Shown piece after piece: positions 27,205 to 41,140 of a DNA stretch of 64,000 nucleotides. The stretch is from the NCBI GenBank assembly GCA_002844335.1, contig CP019154.1, positions 2,356,001-2,420,000 on the forward strand, read 5' to 3'. Each line of letters opens with the position of its first letter. Within the stretch, counting starts at the first letter, position 1. A program made the position numbers and the translations under genes. This DNA comes from Haloarcula taiwanensis (GTDB taxonomy: Archaea; Halobacteriota; Halobacteria; Halobacteriales; Haloarculaceae). The notes below the pieces were generated by a model, which did not search any database, was not told where the DNA came from, and was given only the letters and a program-made list of their open reading frames with translations.

Positions 27205-28503
27205 TTAGTCCCGGGTAAACGACGCAGTGCCGTCGGTGAACGCGAGCGACTCACGCTCGGTGACTTCGGCGGCGGGCGGCAAGTCCTCGACGAGCGGCTC
27301 GGAAACGTGGAGCACCGAGAGCTCCTGTGTGGACTGGATCCAGACGATGCGGACCGTGTCGGGGTCGTAGCCGCCGAGCGCAGACAGCGCCGTCCGGATA
27401 GCGAACTCGTCGTCCGGCGCGACGAGCGGGAGCTTTGCCTTCGCCGTCGACCCGCTGGTGAGTGCGTTCGCGTACGTTTTCTGCAGGTCCAGCTGGTCGA
27501 CAGCGGCCCGGCGGGTGATGTCGGCCAGCCCGATGCCGTTGCCGTTGCCCTTCGTCGCCTTGGTGAGTCCACGGGCGTAGAGCAGCTTGATCGACGGCTC
27601 GTCGGGGTCCGGTGCGTTGAGAACGCGGTAGCGGCCGATGACGTTCGTGTCCATTCCCGCGCCGGAGACATCCTTGCCGAGTTCGTCGACGACGAGCAGG
27701 TCGATGTCGTCGACCGGGAGCGTCGCCATCTCGTCGTACGCCCGTTCCAGCAGGGCGGGCTCGCGGTCGGCGAACGAGCCCGCGGGAATCGCCTCGGCGT
27801 GGGCCGTCTCCTCGTGGAAGTTCTCGACCAGCGCGATGCCGCCGACAAGCGGCAGCGCCGACTCGACAACCGGGAGCGCGGCTTCCAGCGCCTCCACGTA
27901 CCCTTCCTTGATAGCTGTCGAGTGGAACGCCTTCGCACCGTGTTGCTTGCCCAGCCCGACGACGGTCATCTTCGTCAGACCACTCTCGATGCGACCGCTG
28001 TAATTAGTGTGGGGTTTCACTCGGTTCACGACGACCACGGCATCCGCTTCCTGTGCCGCCGTCGAAACGTGGACTGGAAACTCGGTGTCACCGACGGTGA
28101 CGGTGTCGACCTGCTCGGTGTCCATCCGGGCGTCGATGTCGGCGTCGAGGCGCGATTCGGTGATCCCCAGACTCTCCAGCACTTCGCGCTGGCCCTCCGG
28201 CGTCGCCCCGCCGTGGCTCCCCATCGCCGGGACGACGACCGGCTCGAAGCTCCGGTCACGAACAGCCGCGACGACAGCCTCGGCGATGTCGTCGATACGG
28301 TGGATGCCGCGGCTGCCGACGGCGACGGCGACAGTCGCACCCGGTGCCAGCCCATCAAAGTCGAGACGGCCGAGTTCGGCGCGCGTCGCAGCCGACGGGT
28401 CGTCGACGGCGGCCGTCTCTGGCTCGTACTGGATACGAGCGAAGTCCGGCAGCGGCTGTGGGGCAATGAGATGGTCCACGTCGCCTCGGTCTGGGAAGTT
28501 CAT
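27205..28503 (-). CDS. LarA-like protein (DUF2088 family, nickel-pincer racemase superfamily)
   Basis: A 432-residue cytoplasmic protein of the lactate racemase LarA superfamily. Conserved pieces include VAVGSRGIHRIDD, PAMGSHGGATPEGQ, NRVKPHTNYSGRIESGLTK and VGLGKQHGAKAFH, with histidines placed much as in LarA. In LarA a lysine ten residues after the pincer-site histidine carries the nickel cofactor; here the nearest lysine is thirteen residues after, so LarA chemistry is not proven. No larB, larC or larE homologue is in the window. With a D-2-hydroxyacid dehydrogenase upstream, a hydroxyacid racemase or epimerase is the best guess. Start ATG 28503. Confidence 0.75.
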   Translation of the reverse strand: MNFPDRGDVDHLIAPQPLPDFARIQYEPETAAVDDPSAATRAELGRLDFDGLAPGATVAVAVGSRGIHRIDDIAEAVVAAVRDRSFEPVVVPAMGSHGGATPEGQREVLESLGITESRLDADIDARMDTEQVDTVTVGDTEFPVHVSTAAQEADAVVVVNRVKPHTNYSGRIESGLTKMTVVGLGKQHGAKAFHSTAIKEGYVEALEAALPVVESALPLVGGIALVENFHEETAHAEAIPAGSFADREPALLERAYDEMATLPVDDIDLLVVDELGKDVSGAGMDTNVIGRYRVLNAPDPDEPSIKLLYARGLTKATKGNGNGIGLADITRRAAVDQLDLQKTYANALTSGSTAKAKLPLVAPDDEFAIRTALSALGGYDPDTVRIVWIQSTQELSVLHVSEPLVEDLPPAAEVTERESLAFTDGTASFTRD

Positions 28504-28623
28504 ACCAGAGGGTTCGGGGCGAATCATACAAAAACCGCGGTCACACGGCGCTACCGTGGCTCGGAACACGATCCTCGTTCCAGAAGGTCAGAAGAAGCCT
28601 GCGACGAACCGCGGATGCCGCCG

Positions 28624-29781
28624 TTAGTCCTGTAACAACAGTCGGACAGCGTCGGAAAGCTGGCCGACGCGGGCGGCGTGTTCGAAGGACTCCTCGCGGA
28701 TACCGTTCGTGACGAGCGCGAACCCGACGTTCAGTTCGGGGTCGCCCCAGCCGAACGAACTGCCGAGGCCGGCGTGGCCGAACATGCGCTCTTTGCTGGC
28801 GGCCCCGAACATATCGGCGGCCAGCCCGCCGGTCCAGACGCCGAGTCCGTAGCGAGCCGGACGCGACAGCGTGCCGTCGGACTCGGTTTCGGCGTGGGTC
28901 GTGGTCGCCTCGTCGACGGTCGCTTCGGTCAGCAGTTGCGTCCCGTCCAGCGACCCACCGTTTGCGAGACAGGCGTAGAACCGGGCCATGTCCCGGGCGG
29001 TGCCGATGCCGTTGGCTGCGGGAATCACCGCCCGGCGCATCGCCGCCTGATTGAACGCCGCCGCGTACTCCGCGGCAGGGTCTTCGAGCCCCTCGTCGAC
29101 ATCGTGACACCGCTCGAACGCCTCGTAGCCGGCCAGGGTCGCCACGTCGTCGGGCTCGTCATCCCGCAGACCGATTCCGGTATCGTCCATCCCCAGCGGC
29201 TCAAACACGTTTTCGGCGACGTAGTCTTCGACCGGCTGGCCGCTACAGCGACGGATGAGTTCGCCGACCAGCCAGCCGTAGTTGATGGCGTGATACGCTG
29301 GCGTCGTTCCGGGCTCGAACACAGGTTCGATGTCCTCCATCGCCGCGACGACAGCATCCCAGTCGCCCCAGCTTTCGTACTGTTCGTCGAACTCACCGAA
29401 GGGGAGGCCGGCGGTGTGGCTGAGTACCTGCCGGACTGTAATGGATGCTTTCTGCGTGCCGTCGTCGGCAAACTCCGGCCAGTGCTCGACGACCCGGTCG
29501 TCGTAGTCGAGCTTGCCCTGTTCGACGAGCTGGTGCAGGCCGACACCGGCGAACGGCTTCGTACAGGAGAACAGCATGTGGCGTGTCTCGGGCGTCGTTT
29601 CGTCGCCGTCGGGACCCGTGGAGCCGCCAGCGAAATCGACGACCAGGTCGCCGTCAACGTACACCGCCAGCTGTGCGCCGTGGTGGAGTCCGACATCGAG
29701 CTGTCGCTCGAACTGGGCCCGGAGCTGTTCGATATCGCTTGCGCCAAGCTGTGGCATGGTCTGTGTTGAATCCGGGCGCAT
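28624..29781 (-). CDS. Serine hydrolase, beta-lactamase/esterase (class C-like) family
   Basis: A 385-residue penicillin-binding-protein-fold hydrolase. The active-site serine and lysine lie in LFSCTKPFAGV (S-x-x-K), the tyrosine motif in AYHAINYGWLVGE, and the third motif in FGHAGLGSSFGWGDP, as in EstB-type esterases. No signal peptide is seen, so it is probably cytoplasmic, and an esterase is more likely than a true beta-lactamase. It is divergent from an IclR gene across 126 bases that hold a palindrome. Starts at 29781 or 29757 are both possible. Confidence 0.85.
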   Translation of the reverse strand: MRPDSTQTMPQLGASDIEQLRAQFERQLDVGLHHGAQLAVYVDGDLVVDFAGGSTGPDGDETTPETRHMLFSCTKPFAGVGLHQLVEQGKLDYDDRVVEHWPEFADDGTQKASITVRQVLSHTAGLPFGEFDEQYESWGDWDAVVAAMEDIEPVFEPGTTPAYHAINYGWLVGELIRRCSGQPVEDYVAENVFEPLGMDDTGIGLRDDEPDDVATLAGYEAFERCHDVDEGLEDPAAEYAAAFNQAAMRRAVIPAANGIGTARDMARFYACLANGGSLDGTQLLTEATVDEATTTHAETESDGTLSRPARYGLGVWTGGLAADMFGAASKERMFGHAGLGSSFGWGDPELNVGFALVTNGIREESFEHAARVGQLSDAVRLLLQD

Positions 29782-29818: not shown

Positions 29819-29907
29819 GGCGGACAGCTACTCGTTGCATTCGAGCTGTCGGACCCCGGTGGTCGAGTATGCGAAACGTTGATGTCACTAAGCGGTCACG
29901 AGCCCGT

Positions 29908-30678
29908 ATGCTCGGCAACAAGAACGGCACGTCAGAGGTGTCGACGACCCGGACGTCATTCGAGATTCTGGCGCTGATTCGGGACGCGGGAGGCGCGACA
30001 ATCGCAGACATCCGGGCAGAGACGGACCTGGCCAAGAGCACGGTGTATCGACACCTCAAGACGCTGCACGACATGAACTATCTCGTCGAAGAGGGCGGGG
30101 AATACCGGCTCTCGCTGCGGTTTCTGCAACTCAGCGAACCGCCGCGGATACGGCGACCGGGCTATCTCGTCGCCAAGCAGAAAGTCATCGAGCTGGCGAT
30201 AGAGACTGACGAACGGGCGCTGTTTCTGGTCGAGGAGGGTTTCGAGGGCGTGTATCTCCATCGGGCCGGCGGCCGGAACCCGCTCCAGAGCGACACGATG
30301 ATCGGCAGACGCCGGCCACTACACGCGCTCGCCTCGGGGAAAGCCATTCTCGCGGAGTGGTCCGACGAACGCATCGAAGAGTTCGTCGAAACCGCAGGCC
30401 TCAACAGACTGACGGCGAACACGATTACCGACCGGGATGCACTGGTCGAGGAACTCGAACAGGTCCGCGAGCAGGGCTATGCGACCAACATGTCAGAACA
30501 CATGGACGGCCTGCGCGCGGCGGGCGTGCCGGTGTACAACCACGAGGACGATCTCATCGGCGCGTTAAGCGTCTTCGGTCCGAGCGGCCGGGTACGCCGG
30601 GCAGATATCGAATCAACGTACCCCGACCTACTGGAACAGAAAGCCAGCGAGCTGAAGATCGACCTCACGTATGATTGA
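29908..30678 (+). CDS. IclR family transcriptional regulator
   Basis: A 256-residue IclR regulator. The winged helix has TSFEILALIRDAGG and IADIRAETDLAKSTVYRHLKTLHDMNYLV; the effector domain has RRRPLHALASGKAILAEW and GLRAAGVPVYNHEDDLIGALSV. It differs from the regulator at 20710 and is divergent from the serine hydrolase, which it may control. I chose ATG 29908 (MLGNKNG) because it gives a normal N-terminus; ATG 29869 would add thirteen basic residues. Confidence 0.87.
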   Translation: MLGNKNGTSEVSTTRTSFEILALIRDAGGATIADIRAETDLAKSTVYRHLKTLHDMNYLVEEGGEYRLSLRFLQLSEPPRIRRPGYLVAKQKVIELAIETDERALFLVEEGFEGVYLHRAGGRNPLQSDTMIGRRRPLHALASGKAILAEWSDERIEEFVETAGLNRLTANTITDRDALVEELEQVREQGYATNMSEHMDGLRAAGVPVYNHEDDLIGALSVFGPSGRVRRADIESTYPDLLEQKASELKIDLTYD

Positions 30679-30733: not shown

Positions 30734-31897
30734 CTACTCGAAGGCCGGGATGCCGGTCAGGTCGTGGCCGATGATGAGCGAGTGGATGTCGTGCGTTCCC
30801 TCGTAGGTATAGACGGTTTCGAGGTTCGTCAGGTGCCGCATCGGGGAGTAATCAGCCGTGATGCCGTTGCCGCCGAGCATCTCGCGGGCCACCCGTGACT
30901 GCTCGCGGGCCATCCGTGCGTTGTTGCGCTTGGCCATCGACACCTGTTCCGGGCGGAGGTCGCCGCGTTCCTTCAGGTCGGCGAGCCGGTGGGCGAGCAA
31001 CTGGCCCAGCGATATCTGGGTCGCCATCTCCGCGAGCTTCTCCTGCTGGAGCTGATAGCCGGCGATCGGCTTCCCGAACTGCTCGCGGTCGGTGGCGTAC
31101 TCGTGGGCGGTCTCGAAACAGTCCATGGCGGCCCCCACCGTTCCCCAGGCGATACCGTAGCGGGCCTGTGTGAGACAGGACAGCGGTCCCTTCATCCCCT
31201 CGACGCCCGGCAGGACGTTCTCCTCGGGAACGCGGGCGTTCTGGAGGCTGATCTCACCCGTAATCGAAGCCCGCAGCGAGAGCTTCTCGTCGATCTTGTT
31301 CGTCGTCACGCCGTCGCGGTCCGTCTCGACGAGGAAGCCCCGCACTGGGTCGCCGTCGGCGGAGGTGACCTTCGCCCAGACCACTGCGAGGTCGCTAATG
31401 GGCGCGTTCGTGATCCACGTCTTCGAGCCGTTCAGGACGTAGCCGTCGGCGTCGCGCTCGGCCGTCGTCTCCATCGCCGACGGGTTCGACCCGTGTTCGG
31501 GCTCGGTCAGACCGAAACAGCCCACCCGCTCGCCGCTGCCGAGTGCCGGCAGCCATTCCTCCTTCTGTGCATCGCTGCCGTAGGCGTGAATCGGGTACAT
31601 GACGAGGGCCCCCTGCACGCTGGCCATCGAGCGCAGGCCGCTGTCGCCGGCCTCCAGTTCCTGCAGGAGGAGGCCATACGCCGTCTCACTGAGTCCCGGC
31701 AGGCCGTAGCCATCGAGGTTCGGGGCGTAGAACCCGAGGTCGCCCATCTCGGTGATGAGATCCGTCGGGAACGTCCCGTCGATCCAGTGTTGCCCGACGT
31801 CCGGCTTGACTTCGTTCTCGACGAACTCTCGGGCCGTATCACGGACCATCCGCTCTTCCTCGCCGAGGTCGTCTTCGAGACCGAGGTAATCGATCAT
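30734..31897 (-). CDS. Acyl-CoA dehydrogenase, glutaryl-CoA dehydrogenase-like
   Basis: A 387-residue FAD-dependent acyl-CoA dehydrogenase with the full fold: GCFGLTEPEHGSNPSAM and VLNGSKTWITNAP in the N-terminal half, REQFGKPIAGYQLQQEKLAEM and REMLGGNGI in the C-terminal half. The catalytic base is the Glu of TYEGTHDIHSL. The Arg in SGLRSMASVQ matches the substrate-carboxylate arginine of glutaryl-CoA dehydrogenase, suggesting a dicarboxylyl-CoA substrate. It passes electrons to ETF. Start ATG 31897 has a TTAATT promoter element about 25 bases upstream. It is divergent from an aldehyde dehydrogenase. Confidence 0.9.
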   Translation of the reverse strand: MIDYLGLEDDLGEEERMVRDTAREFVENEVKPDVGQHWIDGTFPTDLITEMGDLGFYAPNLDGYGLPGLSETAYGLLLQELEAGDSGLRSMASVQGALVMYPIHAYGSDAQKEEWLPALGSGERVGCFGLTEPEHGSNPSAMETTAERDADGYVLNGSKTWITNAPISDLAVVWAKVTSADGDPVRGFLVETDRDGVTTNKIDEKLSLRASITGEISLQNARVPEENVLPGVEGMKGPLSCLTQARYGIAWGTVGAAMDCFETAHEYATDREQFGKPIAGYQLQQEKLAEMATQISLGQLLAHRLADLKERGDLRPEQVSMAKRNNARMAREQSRVAREMLGGNGITADYSPMRHLTNLETVYTYEGTHDIHSLIIGHDLTGIPAFE

Positions 31898-31979
31898 ATA
31901 GGATCTGTGGCCGGGGTTCAATTAAGCGTTTGCCCGCTGCCAAAGGGATAAAAGTCCGTGGCGCTGTCGACACTATAGA

Positions 31980-33449
31980 ATGTCACAACCAGATAGCCAG
32001 ACGGCGTGGAACCAACTATACATTGACGGTGAGTGGCGCGACGCCGACGCATCTGAGACGATTCCGGTGACTAACCCCGCGACAGGCGAGAAACTCGCGG
32101 CAGTACCCGCCGGGACAGAGGGGGATGTCAACGACGCCTACCGGGCCGCCGACGCGGCCCAGTCCGACTGGGCGGCGCTGTCGCGCGAGGAGCGCAACGA
32201 GTACGTCCAGTCGATGATCGGAGTGATGCAGGACCGGCTCGACGAAATCGTCGAACTACTTGCGACGGAGTCAGGCAGTGTTCAGGCCAAAGCAACTGCC
32301 GAGGCCAACTTCGCCATGGCGGACTTCCAGAGCGCACTGGAGATGGTCCCGCCGGAAGAGGAGGTCCGCGATTCGATGTATCACGAGGACAAGGACCATC
32401 ACATCGTCCGCGAGCCCGCTGGCGTCGTCGGGATTATCTCCCCGTGGAACTTCCCGCTACATCTCACGACGCGGGCGCTCGGCCCCGCGCTCGCGCTGGG
32501 GAACACCGTCGTTATCAAGCCAGCGACGGATACGCCGATAACTGGCGGCCTCCTGCTGGCCGACATCGCCGAGGAGGCTGGCCTCCCGGACGGCGTCGTC
32601 AACGTCGTGACGGGCCACGGCTCCGATATCGGCGACCGGATGGCCGGCCATCCGACCGCCCGTGTGATGTCGTTCACCGGGTCGACAGCAGTCGGCAGGT
32701 CCGTGGCCAGTCAGGCCGGAGACGCGCTCGCCCTCCCGGCGCTTGAACTCGGTGGCAACGGACCGTTCGTCGTCACCGAGGACGCCGACATCGAGGCAGC
32801 CGCCAAGGCCGGTTCTGTCGGTGCGTTCGGTCATCAGGGACAGGTGTGTATCTCGATCAACCGCCACCTCGTCCACGAGGCCGTCTACGACGAGTACGTC
32901 GAGAAGCTCGTCGAGCACGCGGAGTCGCTGACCATCGGGAACCCGCTCGACGAGGACGTGGAGTTCGGCCCGATCATCAACGAGAGTCAGGTCGACCAGC
33001 TCACCTCGTTCATCGAGCAGACCGTCGACGCCGGCGCGACGCTGGAAACGGGCGGCGAGGCCGAGGACCTGTTCCTCGAACCGACCGTCCTCTCGGGGTG
33101 TACCAACGATATGTCTGCGGCCTGTAACGAGCACTTCGGCCCCGTCGCTCCGGTCATCCCGTTCGAGTCCGACGAGGAAGCTGTCGAACTCGCCAACGAC
33201 ACCGAGTACGGCCTCGCCGCGGGCGTCTACAGCGGTGATGTCGAACACGGTCGGTCCATCGCCGACCAGATCGACGCCGGGATGGTCCATGTCAACGACC
33301 ACCCGATTCAGGACGAACCCAACGCCCCGTTCGGCGGGATGAAGAACTCCGGAATCGGCCGGTACAACGGCGAGTGGATCATGGACGAACTGACCGAGAC
33401 CAAGTGGATCTCCGTCCAGCACGAAGAGCGCGACTACCAACTGCTGTAA
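31980..33449 (+). CDS. Aldehyde dehydrogenase (NAD(P)+), ALDH superfamily
   Basis: A 489-residue ALDH. It has IISPWNFPLHLTTRALGPALALGNTVVIKPA (cofactor binding), the general-base Glu in LELGGNGPFVV and the catalytic Cys in GHQGQVCISINRH. It resembles vanillin/benzaldehyde and semialdehyde dehydrogenases of this superfamily; the substrate is not set by sequence. It starts at ATG 31980 with a GATAAAAG element about 30 bases upstream and is divergent from the glutaryl-CoA dehydrogenase-like gene. In this acyl-CoA block it could supply carboxylic acids to the CoA ligase that follows on the other strand. Confidence 0.92.
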   Translation: MSQPDSQTAWNQLYIDGEWRDADASETIPVTNPATGEKLAAVPAGTEGDVNDAYRAADAAQSDWAALSREERNEYVQSMIGVMQDRLDEIVELLATESGSVQAKATAEANFAMADFQSALEMVPPEEEVRDSMYHEDKDHHIVREPAGVVGIISPWNFPLHLTTRALGPALALGNTVVIKPATDTPITGGLLLADIAEEAGLPDGVVNVVTGHGSDIGDRMAGHPTARVMSFTGSTAVGRSVASQAGDALALPALELGGNGPFVVTEDADIEAAAKAGSVGAFGHQGQVCISINRHLVHEAVYDEYVEKLVEHAESLTIGNPLDEDVEFGPIINESQVDQLTSFIEQTVDAGATLETGGEAEDLFLEPTVLSGCTNDMSAACNEHFGPVAPVIPFESDEEAVELANDTEYGLAAGVYSGDVEHGRSIADQIDAGMVHVNDHPIQDEPNAPFGGMKNSGIGRYNGEWIMDELTETKWISVQHEERDYQLL

Positions 33450-33625: not shown

Positions 33626-35281
33626 TCACGTCGCCGGGGCGTTCTCGGCGACAGTTTCGATGACCGACTCGTCAACGTACTCGTCACGGAGCGTCTGTTT
33701 GGAGAACTTCCCGGTCGCGCCCTTGGGAATCTCGTCGACCAGACGGATGGCGTCGGGGACCCACCACGACGGGTACGACTCGGCGACGAGGTCTTTGATT
33801 TCTTGCCGGAGCGCGGCTTCGTCGGACACAGCATCGCGTGTGACGACGAACGCGGCGGGACGTTCGTCCCACCGCTCGTGGGGGACCGGGACGACAGCGG
33901 CTTCGACGACCTCGTCGTGACCCATAATCGCGTTTTCGACCTCGACGCTTGCTATCCACTCGCCGCCGCTCTTGACGAGGTCGTCCATCCGGTCGACCAC
34001 GTCGACGTATCCCTCCGGACTCACCCGGACGATGTCACCGGTTTTGAGCCAACCGTCGTCGGTGACGGCCTGTTCGGTCGCGTCGGGGGCGTTGTAGTAC
34101 TCCTGTGTGACCCACGGGCCACGCATCCAGAGTTCGCCCAGCGACTCGCCGTCCCAGGGCACTTCCTCGCCGTCGGTGTTGACGACTTTGAACTCCAGCC
34201 CGGCAAGCGGAAGCCCCGCGGAGTGGCTCCGCAGGTCGAACAGTTCCTCTTCCGGTAGGTCCGTCATTCCGGGCTTGGGCTCGTAGGCGTGCGTGACCGG
34301 TGACGTTTCGGTCATGCCGTACCCGGAGATGAGATCCACTCCGAACTCCGCTTTGTAGTCTTCCATCAGTGACCGCGGCGTCGCGGACCCGCCACTGGTG
34401 AAGTACCGAACCGAGGAGAAGTCCACGTCGGCCTCGCGGGCGTACTCCAACAGGTCCATGAAGACGGTCGGGACCGCCGCGGAGACGGTCACGTCCTCCT
34501 CCTGGATAAGCTTCGCCAGGTCCTCGGCCGACGGGTTCGGCCCGGGGAGGACCGTCTTGGCTCCTGCAGCGATAGTCGTGAACGGGCGACACCAGCCGCT
34601 GACGTGGAACATCGGGACGTACGTCAGCTCCACGTCGTCGGTCTTGATTCCGGCCTGGCTAGTCATCAGCGACATGACCTGTGTCCAGTACATTTTCTGG
34701 GTGTACTCGACACCTTTCGGCTTTCCTGTTGTCCCGGACGTGTAGCACATCCCCGCCGGCTGGTCCTCGGGCAGTTGCGGGAAGGAGTAGTCGGGGTCGC
34801 CGTCGGCGATGAACGATTCGTAGTCGACGACCGGCTCCAGCGACGTTTCGGGGACGGTGTCGCCCATCACGATGTACTGCTCGACGGAGGCAAACGCCGC
34901 CTCGTCGTACGCCGCTTCGAGCTTCTCCAGCATGACGGGGTCGACGATGAGAATCTCGTCCTCGGCGTCGGCCACGATGTGCTGGATGTGCTCGTCGGGC
35001 AGGAGGAGGTTAATCATGTGGACCTGTGCGCCCATGCAGGCGACGCCGTAGTAGGCCTCTTGATGCCAGTGGTTGTTCCAGGCGAACGTCCCGACTCTGT
35101 CCCCGCGTTCGATACCGGCCTGTTCGAGGGCAGAAGCTAGCTTCCGTACCCGTTCGGCGTACTCCGCTATCGTGTATCGGTGAATCCCCTGATGCGTCCG
35201 CGAAACGATCTCGCTGTCGGGGAACACGTTTTCGCCACGCCACAGGAACGACCGGAGGTTAAGTGGTGCACCGCCTGGCAT
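33626..35281 (-). CDS. Acyl-CoA ligase (AMP-forming), medium-chain fatty-acid type
   Basis: A 551-residue ANL-superfamily adenylating enzyme. Motifs: YTSGTTGKPKGVEYT (P-loop, about residue 180), YGMTETSPV (A4/A5), GWLKTGDIV (A7), DRMDDLVKSGGEWIAS (hinge and A8) and the catalytic lysine in PKGATGKFSK. It makes acyl-AMP, then acyl-CoA, and resembles medium-chain or long-chain ligases of beta-oxidation. Start ATG 35281 has a minus-strand TATA element (TAAGATAT) about 26 bases upstream. It is divergent from the enoyl-CoA hydratase/kinase pair. Confidence 0.92.
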   Translation of the reverse strand: MPGGAPLNLRSFLWRGENVFPDSEIVSRTHQGIHRYTIAEYAERVRKLASALEQAGIERGDRVGTFAWNNHWHQEAYYGVACMGAQVHMINLLLPDEHIQHIVADAEDEILIVDPVMLEKLEAAYDEAAFASVEQYIVMGDTVPETSLEPVVDYESFIADGDPDYSFPQLPEDQPAGMCYTSGTTGKPKGVEYTQKMYWTQVMSLMTSQAGIKTDDVELTYVPMFHVSGWCRPFTTIAAGAKTVLPGPNPSAEDLAKLIQEEDVTVSAAVPTVFMDLLEYAREADVDFSSVRYFTSGGSATPRSLMEDYKAEFGVDLISGYGMTETSPVTHAYEPKPGMTDLPEEELFDLRSHSAGLPLAGLEFKVVNTDGEEVPWDGESLGELWMRGPWVTQEYYNAPDATEQAVTDDGWLKTGDIVRVSPEGYVDVVDRMDDLVKSGGEWIASVEVENAIMGHDEVVEAAVVPVPHERWDERPAAFVVTRDAVSDEAALRQEIKDLVAESYPSWWVPDAIRLVDEIPKGATGKFSKQTLRDEYVDESVIETVAENAPAT

Positions 35282-35302
35282 ACTCCATGCCAACACACAC
35301 CG

Positions 35303-35310
35303 ATATCTTA
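35303..35310 (-). promoter_or_regulatory. TATA box of the acyl-CoA ligase gene
   Basis: TAAGATAT on the minus strand, centred about 26 bases from ATG 35281. It fits a leaderless transcript and fixes the start. Confidence 0.5.
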
Positions 35311-35452
35311 AAACTAGTCCTGCTGAGTGTGGTGGCTGTTGGTGCGCCGAATTCAGTGCGTAGCCAGTATTCGATAAAACTGTAAACTAGCGGTAAATTT
35401 ATACCGGAACCCTGTGAAGTGGCCCCATGCAGCTACGACAGAGGTATATCCG

Positions 35453-36247
35453 ATGAGCGAGTCCGTACTGCTCTCCATCGACGACGGAATCGCCACGCTG
35501 ACGCTGAACGAACCGGAGACGCGGAACGCACTCACACAGCCCGTATACGACGCGCTGGAGCACCACCTCGATACCATCGAGACGGCGTCCGATGTCCGGT
35601 GTGTCGTCATCGAGGGGACCGGCGAGTCGTTCTCGGCCGGCGGTGACATCAAGGGGATGAGTGAGCGACTCTCGAACGATGACCCGGCCGATGACGCCGT
35701 CAGCGAACTGGCCCGCCGAACCCGGGACACCATCGCCAGAGTCGTCGCACTGCCGGTTCCGACCGTCGCGAAGGTCGACGGGTCGGCCGTTGGGGCCGGC
35801 GCGAACCTCGCTATCGCCTGTGACATCCAGTTGGCGAGCGAGTCGGCCAGTATCGGCTTCGTGTTCCGGCAGGTCGGACTCAGCGTCGACGCCGGCACGT
35901 CGTATCTGCTCCCCCGCATTGTCGGGACCAACGTCGCAAAGGGACTGGTGTTCACCGGGGAGATTCTGGATGCCGAGCGGGCCACGGAGCTGGGCCTGTT
36001 CAACCGCGTCTACGACGACGAGGCGTTCGAATCCGAAGTCGAGGCGACCGTCAGCCGCATTGCTAATGGACCGACCATCGCTCTCCGGCATTCCAAGCGG
36101 CTGCTTCAGGACGGGCTGGAGAAGTCCTTCGACCGCGCACAGCGCGACGAGGCGACGGCTCAGGGCATCGTCTTCGAGACCGCCGACCACGAGGAGGGTG
36201 TCGAAGCGTTTCTGACCGACCGCCGACCGGAGTTCGTCGGACGGTGA
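35453..36247 (+). CDS. Enoyl-CoA hydratase/isomerase, PaaG-like
   Basis: A 264-residue crotonase. The oxyanion-hole segments are SFSAGGDIKG (about residue 64) and GSAVGAGANLAIACD (about 112). The segment FRQVGLSVDAGTSYLLPRIVG has Asp where PaaG-type isomerases have theirs, and the two catalytic glutamates of classical enoyl-CoA hydratase (Glu144 and Glu164 of the rat enzyme) appear replaced. This points to double-bond isomerisation rather than hydration. It starts at ATG 35453 and is followed 43 bases later by the APH-type kinase gene, so the two are probably co-transcribed. Confidence 0.85.
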   Translation: MSESVLLSIDDGIATLTLNEPETRNALTQPVYDALEHHLDTIETASDVRCVVIEGTGESFSAGGDIKGMSERLSNDDPADDAVSELARRTRDTIARVVALPVPTVAKVDGSAVGAGANLAIACDIQLASESASIGFVFRQVGLSVDAGTSYLLPRIVGTNVAKGLVFTGEILDAERATELGLFNRVYDDEAFESEVEATVSRIANGPTIALRHSKRLLQDGLEKSFDRAQRDEATAQGIVFETADHEEGVEAFLTDRRPEFVGR

Positions 36248-36290
36248 CACGACCCGCAGCTTTTCATGACGCGGACCGCAATCAGCAATC

Positions 36291-37361
36291 ATGACTGAAC
36301 ACAGCAGCGACTACTACCAGCGATTGGTCGACGAACGTGCGCTCAAAGAGTTTCTCGCAAAGGAGATAGGCCCGGCCGAGACGTTCGACGTTGCGCGCCA
36401 CGAGCAGGGTCACTCCAACGAGACGCTGTTTGTCACCTGGGGCGACCGAGAACTGGTCGTCAGGCGGCCCCCGCCGGGCCAGACCGCTGAGACGGCTCAC
36501 GACGTGTTGCGGGAGTATCGCGTCATCGACGCGCTGCAGGACACAGCCGTCCCGGTCCCACCGACGGTGACGGCCTGTGACGACCAGACGGTCATCGGGA
36601 GCGAGTTCTACGTCATGACCCGCGTCGAGGGGACCGTCATCCGAGACGAAGAACCGGAGCGCTTCGCGAACGACGACGCCCGAGAGGCCGTCGGCACCGA
36701 ACTGGTGGACACCCTCGCAGCCATCCACGAGGTCGATCCGTCAGCTGTCGGCCTGTCCAACCTCGGCCGCGCAGGCGGGTATGCGAAGCGCCAGGTCACG
36801 CGCTGGGGGAAACAACTGGCGTGGGCGTTCGAACGGACGACCGAGTCCCGAACCGTCCCCGAGCTAGAGCGGGTCGGCTCGTGGTTACAGGACGAGTGCC
36901 CCGACGACCACCCGGAGACACTGGTCCACGGCGATTACAAGCTCGATAACGTGATGTTCGGCCCCAGCGACAGCCCCGAACTCGCCGCCGTCTTCGACTG
37001 GGAGATGGCGACGCTGGGCGATCCACGGGCCGACCTCGGCTGGCTGCTCTCGTACTGGCGCGACGCCAAGGACCCGGAGCCGGAGATCCCCGACCTCGCG
37101 ATGGAGTTCATCGAAGCACCGGGCTACCTGACCCGTCAAGACTTGGTCGACCGCTGGGAAGCCCAGACCGGCCTGACGTTCGAACACGAGCGGTTCTATC
37201 GGACGCTCGCCGTGTACAAGCTCGCCGCCCTCGGCGAGATGTTCTACCGGCGCTATCTGGAAGGCAACGCCGACGACCCGTTCTACCCGCTGATGGAAAA
37301 CCGCGTCCCGGCGCTGGCCGAGCGCGCGATTCGGATTATCGAGGGCGACGAACCGCTCTAA
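36291..37361 (+). CDS. APH-family phosphotransferase, ACAD10/11-LvaA type (putative hydroxyacyl-CoA kinase)
   Basis: A 356-residue protein kinase-fold phosphotransferase. It has the nucleotide-binding start HEQGHSNETLFVTWGDRELVVRRPP, the catalytic loop HGDYKLDNVMF (about residue 215) and the metal-binding FDWEMATLGDPRADLGWLL (about 235). The spelling is that of the APH domain in human ACAD10/ACAD11, plant IBR3 and bacterial LvaA, not of aminoglycoside kinases. LvaA and ACAD11 phosphorylate 4-hydroxyacyl-CoAs. It follows the enoyl-CoA isomerase gene on the same strand and converges with an ACAD11-like dehydrogenase, which supports the same pathway here. Confidence 0.85.
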   Translation: MTEHSSDYYQRLVDERALKEFLAKEIGPAETFDVARHEQGHSNETLFVTWGDRELVVRRPPPGQTAETAHDVLREYRVIDALQDTAVPVPPTVTACDDQTVIGSEFYVMTRVEGTVIRDEEPERFANDDAREAVGTELVDTLAAIHEVDPSAVGLSNLGRAGGYAKRQVTRWGKQLAWAFERTTESRTVPELERVGSWLQDECPDDHPETLVHGDYKLDNVMFGPSDSPELAAVFDWEMATLGDPRADLGWLLSYWRDAKDPEPEIPDLAMEFIEAPGYLTRQDLVDRWEAQTGLTFEHERFYRTLAVYKLAALGEMFYRRYLEGNADDPFYPLMENRVPALAERAIRIIEGDEPL

Positions 37362-37489
37362 AGAGAGGGACGCCGAGGACCCTGCACATGTGGCGGCGCG
37401 GGGCTGGAACTCGCTCACGCCTGTGACATCTGGATTGCGACGACCGGCTCGGAGTGCGAGTAGCGACCGTTGCCGGTGACGGCGCTGGC

Positions 37490-38707
37490 TTACTCGCGGT
37501 AGCGCCGCACCGGTTTCAGTTCCTCGCTGTCCACGTCCTCGAAGGCCTCCCGGGCGATGGTCCGGAGGTGAACCTCGTCGGCCCCGTCGACGATGCGGAA
37601 CGTCCTGACCAGTTCGTAGAAGTCCGCCAGCGGAAGGTCCCGGCCGATGCCGTTGCCGCCACAGAACTGGACGGCGGTGTCGATAGCGTCCTGCGTCGCC
37701 CGGGCAGCGAACACTTTGCTCATCGACACCTCGACGCGGGCTTCATTGCCGGCGGCGATGGCGTCCGCGGCGGCCCGGACCAGCGCCCGTGCGGCCTGAA
37801 TCTGTGTCTCCTGTTCGGCGATTTCAAACCGGACGTGTTGCTTGTCGGCCACGGAGTCACCGAAGGCCTGCCGTTCGGTGGTGTAGGCCTTGGCGATGGA
37901 CAGCGCCCGTTCGGCCATTCCAGAAAAGCGCATACAGTGGGTGAGCCGCGCCGGACCGAGCCGCTGCTGGACGTGCTGGAAGCCGTTGCCTTCCTCGCCG
38001 AGCAGGTGCTCCTCAGGGACGCGAACGCCGTTGAACTCGATCTCGGCGTGGCCCTTCGGGTCGCCCTGGCTGCCCATGTGCGGGACGTTTCGAACGATGT
38101 CCACGCCGTCGGCGTCCGTCGGGACGATGAACACTGAACACCCCTGATACGGATGGACGTCCTCGTCCGTTCGAGCGAAGACGAGCAGGATGTCGGCATC
38201 GACGCCGCCGGTCGTCCACCACTTGTGGCCGTCGATGACCCACTCGTCGCCGTCTTTCTCTGCGGTGGTTCGAATCATCTTCGGGTCGGAGCCCGCGCCC
38301 TGCATCGGTTCGGTCATCGCAAAGCCCGACTGTATCTCGCCCTCGACGAGCGGGTCGAGATACTCCGATTTCTGGAGCGCCGTCCCCTGCATCTCCAGCA
38401 GGTGCATATTGCCCTCGTCGGGCGCGTCGACGCGCATCGCAATCGGGCCAAGGAGGCTTCGGCCCGCTTCCTCGAACGTCGGCAACACGTCCCGGAAGTC
38501 ATAGCCCATGCCGCCGTGTTCCTCGGGGATTTGCGGGGCGTACACGTCGTACTCCCGTGCAGCAGCGCGGAGGTCGCGAACTGTTGCGTCGGAGATCGCT
38601 GTCCCGCCCGCGAGTTCGCGCTCCCGCGGGATGACAACCTCGTCCATCAACGCTCTGGCGCGCTCGGCAAGCGCAGTCGCGGCCTCGGAATCGGTGAACG
38701 ATATCAT
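37490..38707 (-). CDS. Acyl-CoA dehydrogenase, ACAD10/11-IBR3-LvaC type
   Basis: A 405-residue acyl-CoA dehydrogenase-fold protein. It has GFAMTEPMQGAGSDPKMI, VIDGHKWWTTGGVDADILLVFAR and RQAFGDSVADKQHVRFEIAE. Near the C-terminus RIVDGADEVHLRTIAREAF replaces the usual YEGT segment; the (D)G-x-DEVH form is typical of the ACAD10/11 branch. In LvaC and ACAD10/11 this domain acts on the 4-phosphoacyl-CoA made by the partner kinase, removing phosphate to leave an enoyl-CoA. It lies next to the kinase (convergent) and a HAD gene (divergent). Start ATG 38707. Confidence 0.87.
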   Translation of the reverse strand: MISFTDSEAATALAERARALMDEVVIPRERELAGGTAISDATVRDLRAAAREYDVYAPQIPEEHGGMGYDFRDVLPTFEEAGRSLLGPIAMRVDAPDEGNMHLLEMQGTALQKSEYLDPLVEGEIQSGFAMTEPMQGAGSDPKMIRTTAEKDGDEWVIDGHKWWTTGGVDADILLVFARTDEDVHPYQGCSVFIVPTDADGVDIVRNVPHMGSQGDPKGHAEIEFNGVRVPEEHLLGEEGNGFQHVQQRLGPARLTHCMRFSGMAERALSIAKAYTTERQAFGDSVADKQHVRFEIAEQETQIQAARALVRAAADAIAAGNEARVEVSMSKVFAARATQDAIDTAVQFCGGNGIGRDLPLADFYELVRTFRIVDGADEVHLRTIAREAFEDVDSEELKPVRRYRE

Positions 38708-38875
38708 GGCACAGTCTCGTTCTCGCACGTCGTCATGATAAGTGTTGGAGCACAGCGAACGCGTGGTCGGTCGTTTATTCCACAGCGCGGTGCCCCGGCG
38801 CACCCGCCGCGACACAGCCACGGGACTCTGGGCGTCGGCGGTAGTTTCATACCCGGACCAGTCCAAGCCGCTACC

Positions 38876-39571
38876 GTGAACGAGAGGTCAGACATTGAGG
38901 CCGTCTTCTGGGATATCGGGGGCGTCATCCTTCGGATGGCGTCCGTCCGGGCGGCCCACCGCGAGTTTGTCGACCGCCTGTGTTCGGAGTACCCGGCGGC
39001 TGCGGATTCCGACGCGGCTCTCGACCGATGGCGGGATGTCCTCGGAACGTACTTCGGCGAGCGCGAGGGCACAGCGTTCCGACCGGCCCGCGAGGGGTAC
39101 CGGCGGGCAATCGACGAGATTCTGACAGTCAGTCCCGAGGAAACTGAGTGGGAATCACTGTTCCATAGAATCCGCGACGAACAGGTCGAACCCAACCCCG
39201 ACGCCATCGCAGCCATCGAGGCCTTGGCGGACGCGCCGCTCCATCAAGGCGTCGTCAGTGACGTGGACGACGACGAGGGCGAGCAACTGTTGCGGACCTT
39301 CGGGGTCTGGGACGCGATGGATTCGTACACCGCCTCAGAGGCCGTCGGTCGGACCAAACCGGACCCGGCGATGTTCGAAACGGCGCTCAGAAAGGCTTCG
39401 GTCGAACCGGCGCGGGCCGTGATGATCGGTGACCGCTACGAGCACGATATGCACGGCGGAACACGGGCCGGGCTGTGGACAGTCGCTTACGGGGCCGAAG
39501 ACGGACCCGCTGTGGATATCACGCTCGACGACCTCCGCGAGCTGCCGGATTGGCTTGGCGTCTCGGAGTGA
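38876..39571 (+). CDS. HAD-superfamily hydrolase, ACAD10 N-terminal-domain-like
   Basis: A 231-residue HAD protein. Motif I is FWDIGGVILRM: the nucleophile Asp is present but the second Asp is Gly, as in YihX-type phosphatases and, from memory, the HAD domain of human ACAD10. Motif II is VVSDVDDDE, motif III the lysine of GRTKPDPAMFE, motif IV VMIGDRYEHDMHGG. The start is GTG 38876; the longer open frame to 38153 is antisense to the dehydrogenase. It is divergent from that gene over 168 bases, which contain both promoters. It may remove phosphate from a pathway intermediate. Confidence 0.8.
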   Translation: MNERSDIEAVFWDIGGVILRMASVRAAHREFVDRLCSEYPAAADSDAALDRWRDVLGTYFGEREGTAFRPAREGYRRAIDEILTVSPEETEWESLFHRIRDEQVEPNPDAIAAIEALADAPLHQGVVSDVDDDEGEQLLRTFGVWDAMDSYTASEAVGRTKPDPAMFETALRKASVEPARAVMIGDRYEHDMHGGTRAGLWTVAYGAEDGPAVDITLDDLRELPDWLGVSE

Positions 39572-39610
39572 AGCCGGATTACGACCGCCGTTACTGGGAC
39601 TCCCCGCTAC

Positions 39611-40399
39611 TCAGATGTCGGGCGTCTCTTCGAGCCGTGGGACGCCAGCGGCGGTGATCGTCTGGCCGACGATGTACGACGATGCCGGGCTGGCGAGGAA
39701 CAGCGCGATGTCGGCGATCTCCTCCGAGAGGCCGATGCGGCGCTCGACGGCCTCGCGGTCGATATTGTCGGCGCTGACACCCATCTGTGACTCGACGCCC
39801 GGCGTGGCGACGAAGCCCGGGGCGATGCAGTTGATGCGGATGTCACGGTCGGCCCACTCCGCCGACAGCGTGGATGTGAGATTGCTGACGCCGGCCTTTG
39901 CGGCCCCGTAGTGACTCATATACGGTGCGCCCTGTTCCCCGGCAACGCTGGAGAGGTTGATGACCGCCCCGCCGCCGTCCGCTGCCAGCGCTTCGCCGGC
40001 CGCCTGCGTGCAGTGGTAGGTCCCGTGGAGGTTGATGTCGACGATGGTTTTCCAGCCGTTCTCGCTGATGTCGTCGAACCCGGACATGAAGCTCGCGCCG
40101 GCGTTGTTCACGAGCACATCCAGCCCACCGAACTCGTCGACGGTCGCTTCCACCAGCGCCTCGACAGCCTCGCGGTCTGTCACGTCGCATTCGATAGCGA
40201 CTGCGTCACCGGGCCGGTCGCTGTCGTTGATTTCGTCGGCCACCGGGCCGACGTTGTCCTGCTCGCGCGAGCAGACAACCACGTCGGCCCCGTCAGCCGC
40301 GAACTCCTCCGCGATTGCCCGGCCGATACCGCTCGATGCACCCGTGATAATCGCCCGCTGTCCCTCCAAGCGAAACCGCTCCGTGTGTGGCTTTGACAT
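39611..40399 (-). CDS. Short-chain dehydrogenase/reductase (FabG-like)
   Basis: A 262-residue SDR. It has TGASSGIGRAIAEEF (cofactor motif), NNAGASFM, the catalytic Ser in NLSSVAGEQG, and the Tyr/Lys in HYGAAKAGV, with the late INCIAPGFVATPG loop of FabG-like reductases. It likely interconverts hydroxyacyl-CoA and ketoacyl-CoA. LvaD, the SDR of the bacterial levulinate pathway, is also of this type. Start 40399 is chosen from several in-frame ATGs because a TTTATT element lies about 27 bases upstream. It is divergent from the MaoC gene. Confidence 0.88.
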   Translation of the reverse strand: MSKPHTERFRLEGQRAIITGASSGIGRAIAEEFAADGADVVVCSREQDNVGPVADEINDSDRPGDAVAIECDVTDREAVEALVEATVDEFGGLDVLVNNAGASFMSGFDDISENGWKTIVDINLHGTYHCTQAAGEALAADGGGAVINLSSVAGEQGAPYMSHYGAAKAGVSNLTSTLSAEWADRDIRINCIAPGFVATPGVESQMGVSADNIDREAVERRIGLSEEIADIALFLASPASSYIVGQTITAAGVPRLEETPDI

Positions 40400-40581
40400 C
40401 GCATCGGACATCTCGGCCATCTGCAATAAAGCTACGTCCTGAGTTCTCTCTGCCGGATTCAGTTGAATATCGTTGAACAGTCAGATCAGACGAGTGGTGC
40501 CGCGTCTCCCTGTGGCAGCGTCGAGAGTAACGGACGAGCCCCGGTAGCATTAACACCGACGCGAGACACGGAGGGATGTGT

Positions 40582-40695
40582 ATGTCCAGCAATAGTAACA
40601 AACCGGGGTCTAGGGACCAGCGGGTCCCAGCGGGGCAGTGGCAACTCGACCAGAAACCGGAGCGTCGTTTCACAGTCGCTTGCGAGGACCAGTAA
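40582..40695 (+). CDS. Possible 37-residue small protein upstream of the MaoC gene
   Basis: A short frame (starting MSSNSNKPGSRDQRV, ending ACEDQ) that stops one base before the MaoC start codon. A GGAGGG stretch at 40570-40575 sits a few bases before its ATG, which is a good Shine-Dalgarno match and unusual in this mostly leaderless window. The sequence is hydrophilic and matches no family I know. It could be a real co-translated small protein or an upstream reading frame that tunes MaoC translation; it could also be chance. Confidence 0.35.
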   Translation: MSSNSNKPGSRDQRVPAGQWQLDQKPERRFTVACEDQ

Positions 40696-40696
40696 G

Positions 40697-41140
40697 ATGG
40701 CCGGCGAGTTCGACACAGTCGACGTTGGCGATAGCTTTACCACGTCGGGCCGGACCATCACCGAGGCCGACGTGGTCAACTTTGCGGGTGTCAGCGGGGA
40801 TTTCAATCACCTCCATACGAACGCCGAACGGATGGCCGACTCGGGCTACGGCGAGCGCATCGCACACGGTGCGCTGGTGTTTTCAGTCGTCACTGGGTTG
40901 GTATGGCAGGCCCGCGACGAGGCCGAAAAGCGGCACATGGTCGCGTTCTACGGCATCGACCGGCTTCGGTTCATCAAACCAGTGTTTCTGGGCGATACGA
41001 TTCACGCCGAAGCCGAGGTTGTCGACACAGAGCGCCGAGACCACCCGGTTGCGACAGGCGTCGTCCGGACTGAAGTCACTACGCTGAATCAGGCCGACGA
41101 AGCTGTGTTCTCGGCCGAGTTCCTCACGCTTCGGCGGTAG
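40697..41140 (+). CDS. MaoC-like (R)-specific enoyl-CoA hydratase
   Basis: A 147-residue hotdog-fold hydratase. The active-site Asp and His lie in SGDFNHLHTN (about residue 35-43), followed by RIAHGALVFSVVTGL, the usual R-hydratase spelling. It adds water to trans-2-enoyl-CoA to give (R)-3-hydroxyacyl-CoA, used in beta-oxidation or polyhydroxyalkanoate synthesis. It follows a possible 37-residue frame by one base and is divergent from the SDR gene. No phaC or phaE is in the window. Confidence 0.9.
   Translation: MAGEFDTVDVGDSFTTSGRTITEADVVNFAGVSGDFNHLHTNAERMADSGYGERIAHGALVFSVVTGLVWQARDEAEKRHMVAFYGIDRLRFIKPVFLGDTIHAEAEVVDTERRDHPVATGVVRTEVTTLNQADEAVFSAEFLTLRR

Follow-up and report, generated by a model that had tools for sequence, protein, structure and literature searches.

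What does a haloarchaeon do with a kinase and an acyl-CoA dehydrogenase (ACAD) that resemble the two catalytic parts of a mammalian enzyme for 4-hydroxy acids? This question is raised by a gene cluster of Haloarcula taiwanensis located at positions 33626-41140 of a 64,000-nucleotide stretch (GenBank assembly GCA_002844335.1, contig CP019154.1, positions 2,356,001 to 2,420,000), hereafter referred to as the window. In ACAD10, a HAD domain, an APH-type kinase, and an ACAD are fused, while ACAD11 consists of the fused kinase and ACAD. The lva operon of Pseudomonas putida encodes a kinase (LvaA), LvaB (presumably a DUF6285 protein), an ACAD (LvaC), an SDR (LvaD), and a ligase (LvaE). The ACAD10/11 route was assigned to its enzymes only in 2024-2025, and archaea are not mentioned in the two reports (PMC12440821, PMC11342911). 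The window encodes the kinase, the ACAD, and a HAD protein as three separate open frames, not as one fused chain as in ACAD10. We consider it probable (roughly 75%) that the core of this locus is a haloarchaeal module for 4-hydroxyacyl-CoA degradation, with reactions, substrate, and HAD role predicted by analogy with these systems.

Active-site signature of the dehydrogenase and its partner kinase

The window ACAD (37490-38707, minus strand), a proposed 4-phosphoacyl-CoA phosphate eliminase, has its best PDB matches by phmmer in 4hr3 (1.3e-65) and ACAD11 (2wbi/8v3u, about 1e-64), followed by the next family at about 1e-45; 4hr3 and ACAD11 score about 220 bits, compared to about 160 bits for any other ACAD. 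Cryo-EM and mutagenesis of mouse ACAD11 showed that the 4-phosphate is contacted by R626, H634, and R637 (HCMR motif) and that D753 is the catalytic base, with R631 described as a general ACAD residue (PMC12440821). At the equivalent positions, the window ACAD reads R-LGPA-R-LT-HCMR (motif stretch QQRLGPARLTHCMR) and DGADEVH, the latter being the DG-x-DEVH end noticed in the original prediction. R626, R631, HCMR 634-637 (stretch RLGPARLTHCMR), and D753 are kept in all 36 haloarchaeal ACAD copies, and in each of them this Asp replaces the usual ACAD Glu base. The strict signature pattern fits 34 of these copies, the remaining two deviating solely at the motif Gly. No HCMR motif was found in seven ACAD paralogues of the same genome, which carry the canonical YEGT-type Glu, or in four further ones. 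Judged by its active-site residues, the haloarchaeal ACAD is not an ordinary dehydrogenase but a member of the ACAD10/11-LvaC signature group.

The APH-fold kinase (36291-37361, plus strand; Pfam APH 1.8e-50) is the proposed 4-hydroxyacyl-CoA kinase and counterpart of LvaA and the ACAD10/11 kinase domain, and its top PDB matches by phmmer are 9o56 (3.7e-58) and ACAD11 (8v3v, 4.9e-49). The Asp and Asn of HGDxKxDN (D220, N225), the DWE metal site, the Arg of RQVxxW (ACAD11 R176 region, substrate/CoA cavity), and the alpha-C RE are kept in 60/60 haloarchaeal kinases, and the counterpart of ACAD11 R86 is not certain in this alignment. In some haloarchaea (G198, G143), between three and seven copies of the kinase are present, a number of them with no ACAD next to them, and L089 has in addition a kinase that diverges strongly (27%), which suggests further specialised hydroxyacyl kinases.

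Co-occurrence of kinase and dehydrogenase in Halobacteria

Kinase and ACAD are functionally linked. Among the 292 genomes of the class Halobacteria searched (strong kinase match, E < 1e-75; all genome counts are from samples), strong matches to both were found in the identical 144 genomes and both were missing in the other 148 (Fisher's p 2.8e-87, which overstates the independence of the genomes). At least 11 genera comprise species with and species without the genes, and within these genera one gene never occurs without the other. In the search for conserved adjacency proposed in the original prediction, at least 82 genomes have the two genes no more than 5 kb apart, usually in a back-to-back arrangement, and the recurrence of the pair answers the concern that the neighbourhood might not extend beyond this genome. 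The earlier identification of an ACAD10/11- and LvaA/LvaC-like pair is strongly supported by the PDB matches and diagnostic residues of the proteins and by the shared phylogenetic profile and adjacency of the genes. In a sample of 295 Halobacteriota genomes, no pair was found outside the Halobacteria (other archaeal phyla were not searched), and a presence across the Halobacteriota was rejected within this sample, as all members fall in the Halobacteria.

The broadly conserved set comprises only the kinase, ACAD, SDR, and HAD. The SDR is present in 131 of the 144 pair-bearing genomes and in 29 genomes without the pair; many genera have orthologues of 73-79% identity close to the kinase. A fused 3-hydroxyacyl-CoA dehydrogenase/enoyl-CoA hydratase (HCDH-ECH), which points to beta-oxidation, comes after the kinase in about a dozen genera and is itself succeeded by an Lrp-like regulator; the window locus contains neither the fused gene nor an Lrp-type regulator.

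The HAD protein: regulator, phosphatase, or bystander

The HAD-like protein (38876-39571, plus strand; Pfam Hydrolase/HAD_2) is the proposed kinase partner, acting as regulator or repair phosphatase, and had been interpreted as the HAD part of a split ACAD10. Its association with the pair agrees with this idea: a HAD orthologue occurs in 100 of the 292 genomes, 99 of which have the pair; in the one remaining genome, the match is only of half length. At least 53 genomes, at least 41 of them from genera other than that of the window, have the HAD gene no more than 5 kb from the kinase. Several genera have the two on the same strand, with the kinase open frame 117-263 nt downstream of the HAD stop. 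In about a third of the HAD-bearing genomes, the HAD gene lies away from both kinase and ACAD. All 18 copies examined have D-x-G in motif I (D13-x-G15), not D-x-D, and keep the nucleophile Asp13 together with Ser128, Lys161, Asp186, and Asp191. The loss of the second motif-I Asp is shared with ACAD10, but D-x-G by itself is no proof of lost HAD activity.

The nearest relatives of the protein make the idea of a split ACAD10 less certain. It is a HAD-IA protein with its best PDB match in PH0459/3u26 (profile E 1e-31) and its best NCBIfam match in TIGR02253. The archaeal PH0459/3u26 HADs (CTE7, TIGR02253-like), of which 3u26 also lacks the second motif-I Asp, have to our knowledge no tie to acyl-CoA metabolism. 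Against TIGR02247 (epoxide-hydrolase-N-type), the model that we believe to hold the HAD of ACAD10, the window protein scores 26 bits at a cut-off of 125, ACAD10's own HAD sequence not being part of the comparison. Because its nearest relatives are PH0459/CTE7-type and this score is far below the cut-off, the resemblance may be convergent. The haloarchaeal protein looks like a different subfamily from ACAD10's HAD, and on sequence grounds convergence appears at least as likely as common descent.

Three roles can be weighed for this protein, and their probabilities are not to be summed with that of the module as a whole. That the HAD is a genuine phosphatase, hydrolysing dead-end phosphoacyl-CoA or the free phospho-acid as a form of metabolite repair, is a serious possibility that falls somewhat short of even odds. 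The conserved nucleophile Asp13 and motif II-IV residues favour such an activity, as does a histidine phosphatase at a comparable place in some bacterial clusters, but every copy examined has Gly at the position of the motif-I acid/base Asp. ACAD10's HAD, in which the second motif-I Asp is likewise missing, is reported to have negligible activity as a phosphatase and to hold the kinase in check (PMC11342911). More tentatively, the 4-hydroxyacyl-CoA kinase might have a dedicated HAD pseudo-phosphatase as its regulator or as a subunit on a chain of its own, one that arose independently of the fused ACAD10 HAD, in which case both lineages would have converged on a brake against phosphoacyl-CoA build-up. 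It is less likely still that the linkage of HAD and SDR merely stems from the clustering of beta-oxidation genes in haloarchaea, with an unrelated HAD substrate. The genomes with a distant HAD and those with an SDR in the absence of the pair would agree with this explanation, but it accounts poorly for the pair in 99 of the 100 HAD-bearing genomes and for the short same-strand spacing between HAD and kinase in several genera.

The remaining genes of the locus

Each of the seven genes of the predicted locus is a genuine open frame and has a strong match in Pfam. In addition to the kinase, ACAD, and HAD, these are an AMP-forming acyl-CoA ligase (33626-35296, minus strand; Pfam AMP-binding 3.5e-81), a crotonase-family enoyl-CoA hydratase/isomerase (ECH; 35456-36247, plus strand; Pfam ECH_1 2.8e-46), an SDR oxidoreductase (39611-40426, minus strand; Pfam adh_short_C2 3.7e-61), and a MaoC-type hydratase (about 40697-41140, plus strand; Pfam MaoC_dehydratas 3.8e-28). 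The ligase, a possible LvaE counterpart for acid activation, exceeds the cut-off for the NCBIfam long-chain-fatty-acid--CoA ligase subfamily, and the SDR is a possible LvaD-like 4-oxo/4-hydroxyacyl-CoA reductase. The existing annotation is generic (phosphotransferase, acyl-CoA dehydrogenase, HAD hydrolase) and lists the SDR as a glucose 1-dehydrogenase. As the strands of most genes alternate, the locus is a cluster and not one operon; a single operon was ruled out, with only ECH and kinase in tandem, 43 nt apart. The description of the ECH as PaaG-like holds by eye, since it lacks both hydratase Glu residues and has a PaaG-type Asp (SVDAG), which suggests an isomerase and not a hydratase, but all curated NCBIfam cut-offs were missed.

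The original prediction of a full route including ligase, isomerase, SDR, and hydratase does not extend far beyond the window as a conserved unit. Ligase, ECH, and MaoC occupy the same places in the window's genus and in one genome of another family (L044), and are found elsewhere only in part; a conserved full route was therefore rejected. A peripheral aldehyde dehydrogenase (31980-33449, plus strand; Pfam Aldedh 1.9e-160) is also kept in the same position in L044. Further away in the window, a second ACAD (30734-31921) with a canonical YEGT Glu, closest to FadE/glutaryl-CoA-dehydrogenase-type models, adjoins an IclR regulator (29869-30678), and a protein judged by eye to resemble the LarA (nickel lactate racemase) family (27205-28569) adjoins a beta-lactamase-fold serine hydrolase (28624-29781).

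Relation to mammalian and bacterial systems

The haloarchaeal proteins share with human and mouse ACAD10/ACAD11 the kinase catalytic and CoA-cavity residues and the R626/R631/HCMR/D753 set of the ACAD, and with ACAD10 a HAD that has only the first motif-I Asp. In contrast to ACAD10/ACAD11, haloarchaea use three separate genes on different strands, their ACAD belongs to a separate clade, and their HAD is closest to PH0459/CTE7-type proteins. As in the P. putida lva operon, kinase, signature ACAD, SDR, and ligase lie within 7 kb in the window, and LvaA-C chemistry would be expected, a likeness judged by gene content and the residues of ACAD11. Unlike the lva operon, the haloarchaeal locus has a divergent gene order, lacks an LvaB-type DUF6285 gene, and adds the HAD and often HCDH-ECH.

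Signature-bearing relatives with ACAD, kinase, and SDR together are found in Thermus, Rhodococcus, Roseivivax, Georgenia, and Deinococcus (on bacterial plasmids), with the Rhodococcus relative adjoining an acyclic-terpene-utilisation protein and a carboxylase. The Thermus thermophilus pTT27 cluster (TTH_RS10060-RS10100) likewise has SDR-ACAD-kinase, and its ACAD is 45% identical with the signature LDPARLTHCMR and DGPSEVH, but it is a tandem operon with DUF6285 and a histidine phosphatase in place of the HAD, and its kinase is only 30% identical. We know of no characterisation of this cluster; its operon (L195 8944-12071: ACAD, kinase, DUF6285, histidine phosphatase) is a tractable thermophile counterpart. 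Of 80 bacterial ACAD11-like loci, 45 have a kinase within 6 kb, and a comparable HAD was found in one, so that the HAD was rejected as a feature of these clusters. In four Pseudomonas loci, an ACAD11-like gene stands alone, and no kinase was detected in its surroundings; it seems to be a second member that is not linked to the lva operon.

In quick maximum-likelihood trees without bootstrap (the ACAD tree rooted on canonical ACADs), the signature-bearing ACADs split from canonical ACADs (SH-aLRT 99). The haloarchaeal ACADs are placed weakly beside Thermus/actinobacterial copies (81), and the haloarchaeal kinases group together (88). Their separate position in these trees indicates an old separate branch and not a recent copy of the lva operon.

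Proposed reactions and alternative explanations

As the mechanism of ACAD10/11 and LvaA/LvaC is established, phosphorylation of 4-hydroxyacyl-CoA followed by redox-neutral elimination is the most likely job of the pair. Either the ligase would form the CoA ester or the SDR would reduce a 4-oxoacyl-CoA such as levulinyl-CoA, and both enzymes fit LvaD-/LvaE-like entry steps by analogy. The kinase would then phosphorylate the 4-hydroxyl with ATP, and the ACAD, using its Asp base, bound FAD, and Arg/His/Arg phosphate pocket, would eliminate the phosphate to yield 2-enoyl-CoA with no net oxidation. This product would be taken through beta-oxidation by a hydratase and a hydroxyacyl-CoA dehydrogenase, while the HAD partner would probably restrain the kinase or remove off-pathway phosphate.

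Several points weigh against this proposal. The haloarchaeal ACADs fall into a clade of their own (SH-aLRT 99) outside that of mouse ACAD11 and its close bacterial relatives, we found no assayed enzyme of this haloarchaeal clade, and the 4-hydroxy position of the substrate is assumed from homologues. Kinase and ACAD are not adjacent in many genomes, and LvaB-type DUF6285 (PF19802) was found in 0/97 haloarchaeal genomes, with 2/14 control genomes positive.

Physiological evidence comes from Haloferax mediterranei. Plasmid pHME132 of strain ATCC 33500, which we take to be the same strain as DSM 1411, encodes SDR-HAD-ACAD-kinase-HCDH-ECH, with HAD, ACAD, and kinase as E6P09_RS18915, RS18920, and RS18925. 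DSM 1411 is reported to grow on levulinic acid in mineral medium (PMC12455835). The same report gives similar growth on formate, and no no-carbon control was noted, so that background growth is possible, a further point against the proposal. pHME132 has one annotated hydroxyacyl-CoA dehydrogenase, which may be HFX_4016, a gene induced in polyester mobilisation (PMC4823750). Further along, the pHME132 cluster (L203 25880-44324) includes a ligase, SCP2, alcohol and aldehyde dehydrogenases, and a neighbouring pair of frames annotated as pieces of alkyl sulfatase, a hint of nearby genes for the breakdown of alkyl sulfates or alcohols.

Alternatively, the same chemistry might serve another substrate, with branched, cyclic, terpenoid-derived, or long-chain hydroxyacyl-CoA being phosphorylated and dehydroxylated instead of simple 4-hydroxy acids. 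The distinctness of the haloarchaeal clade from the characterised one, the terpene-utilisation neighbour in Rhodococcus, and the different companion genes among genera lend this some plausibility, but we regard it as rather improbable given the complete set of ACAD11 phosphate-pocket and base residues and the reported growth of H. mediterranei on levulinate. An ordinary FAD/ETF-dependent acyl-CoA dehydrogenase beside a kinase for some unrelated small molecule is a highly improbable reading of the pair: both families are large and other ACADs lie near some pair-bearing loci, but the Asp in place of the canonical Glu, the HCMR motif restricted to ACAD10/11, and the exact co-occurrence with the kinase all contradict it.

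Significance for haloarchaeal metabolism

The 4-hydroxyacyl-CoA module described here is a known pathway in a new and widespread archaeal form, with its activity and substrate predicted from homologues. That half of the sampled haloarchaeal genomes have the signature together with a kinase inherited in exact step with it would extend this route to the third domain of life and provides candidate genes for the use of levulinate, lactones, and 4-hydroxy acids in bioplastic-making archaea. As a natural three-gene version of ACAD10, it also makes it possible to add the unexplained HAD, leave it out, or assay it by itself, making an archaeal version of the 4-hydroxy-acid route directly testable.

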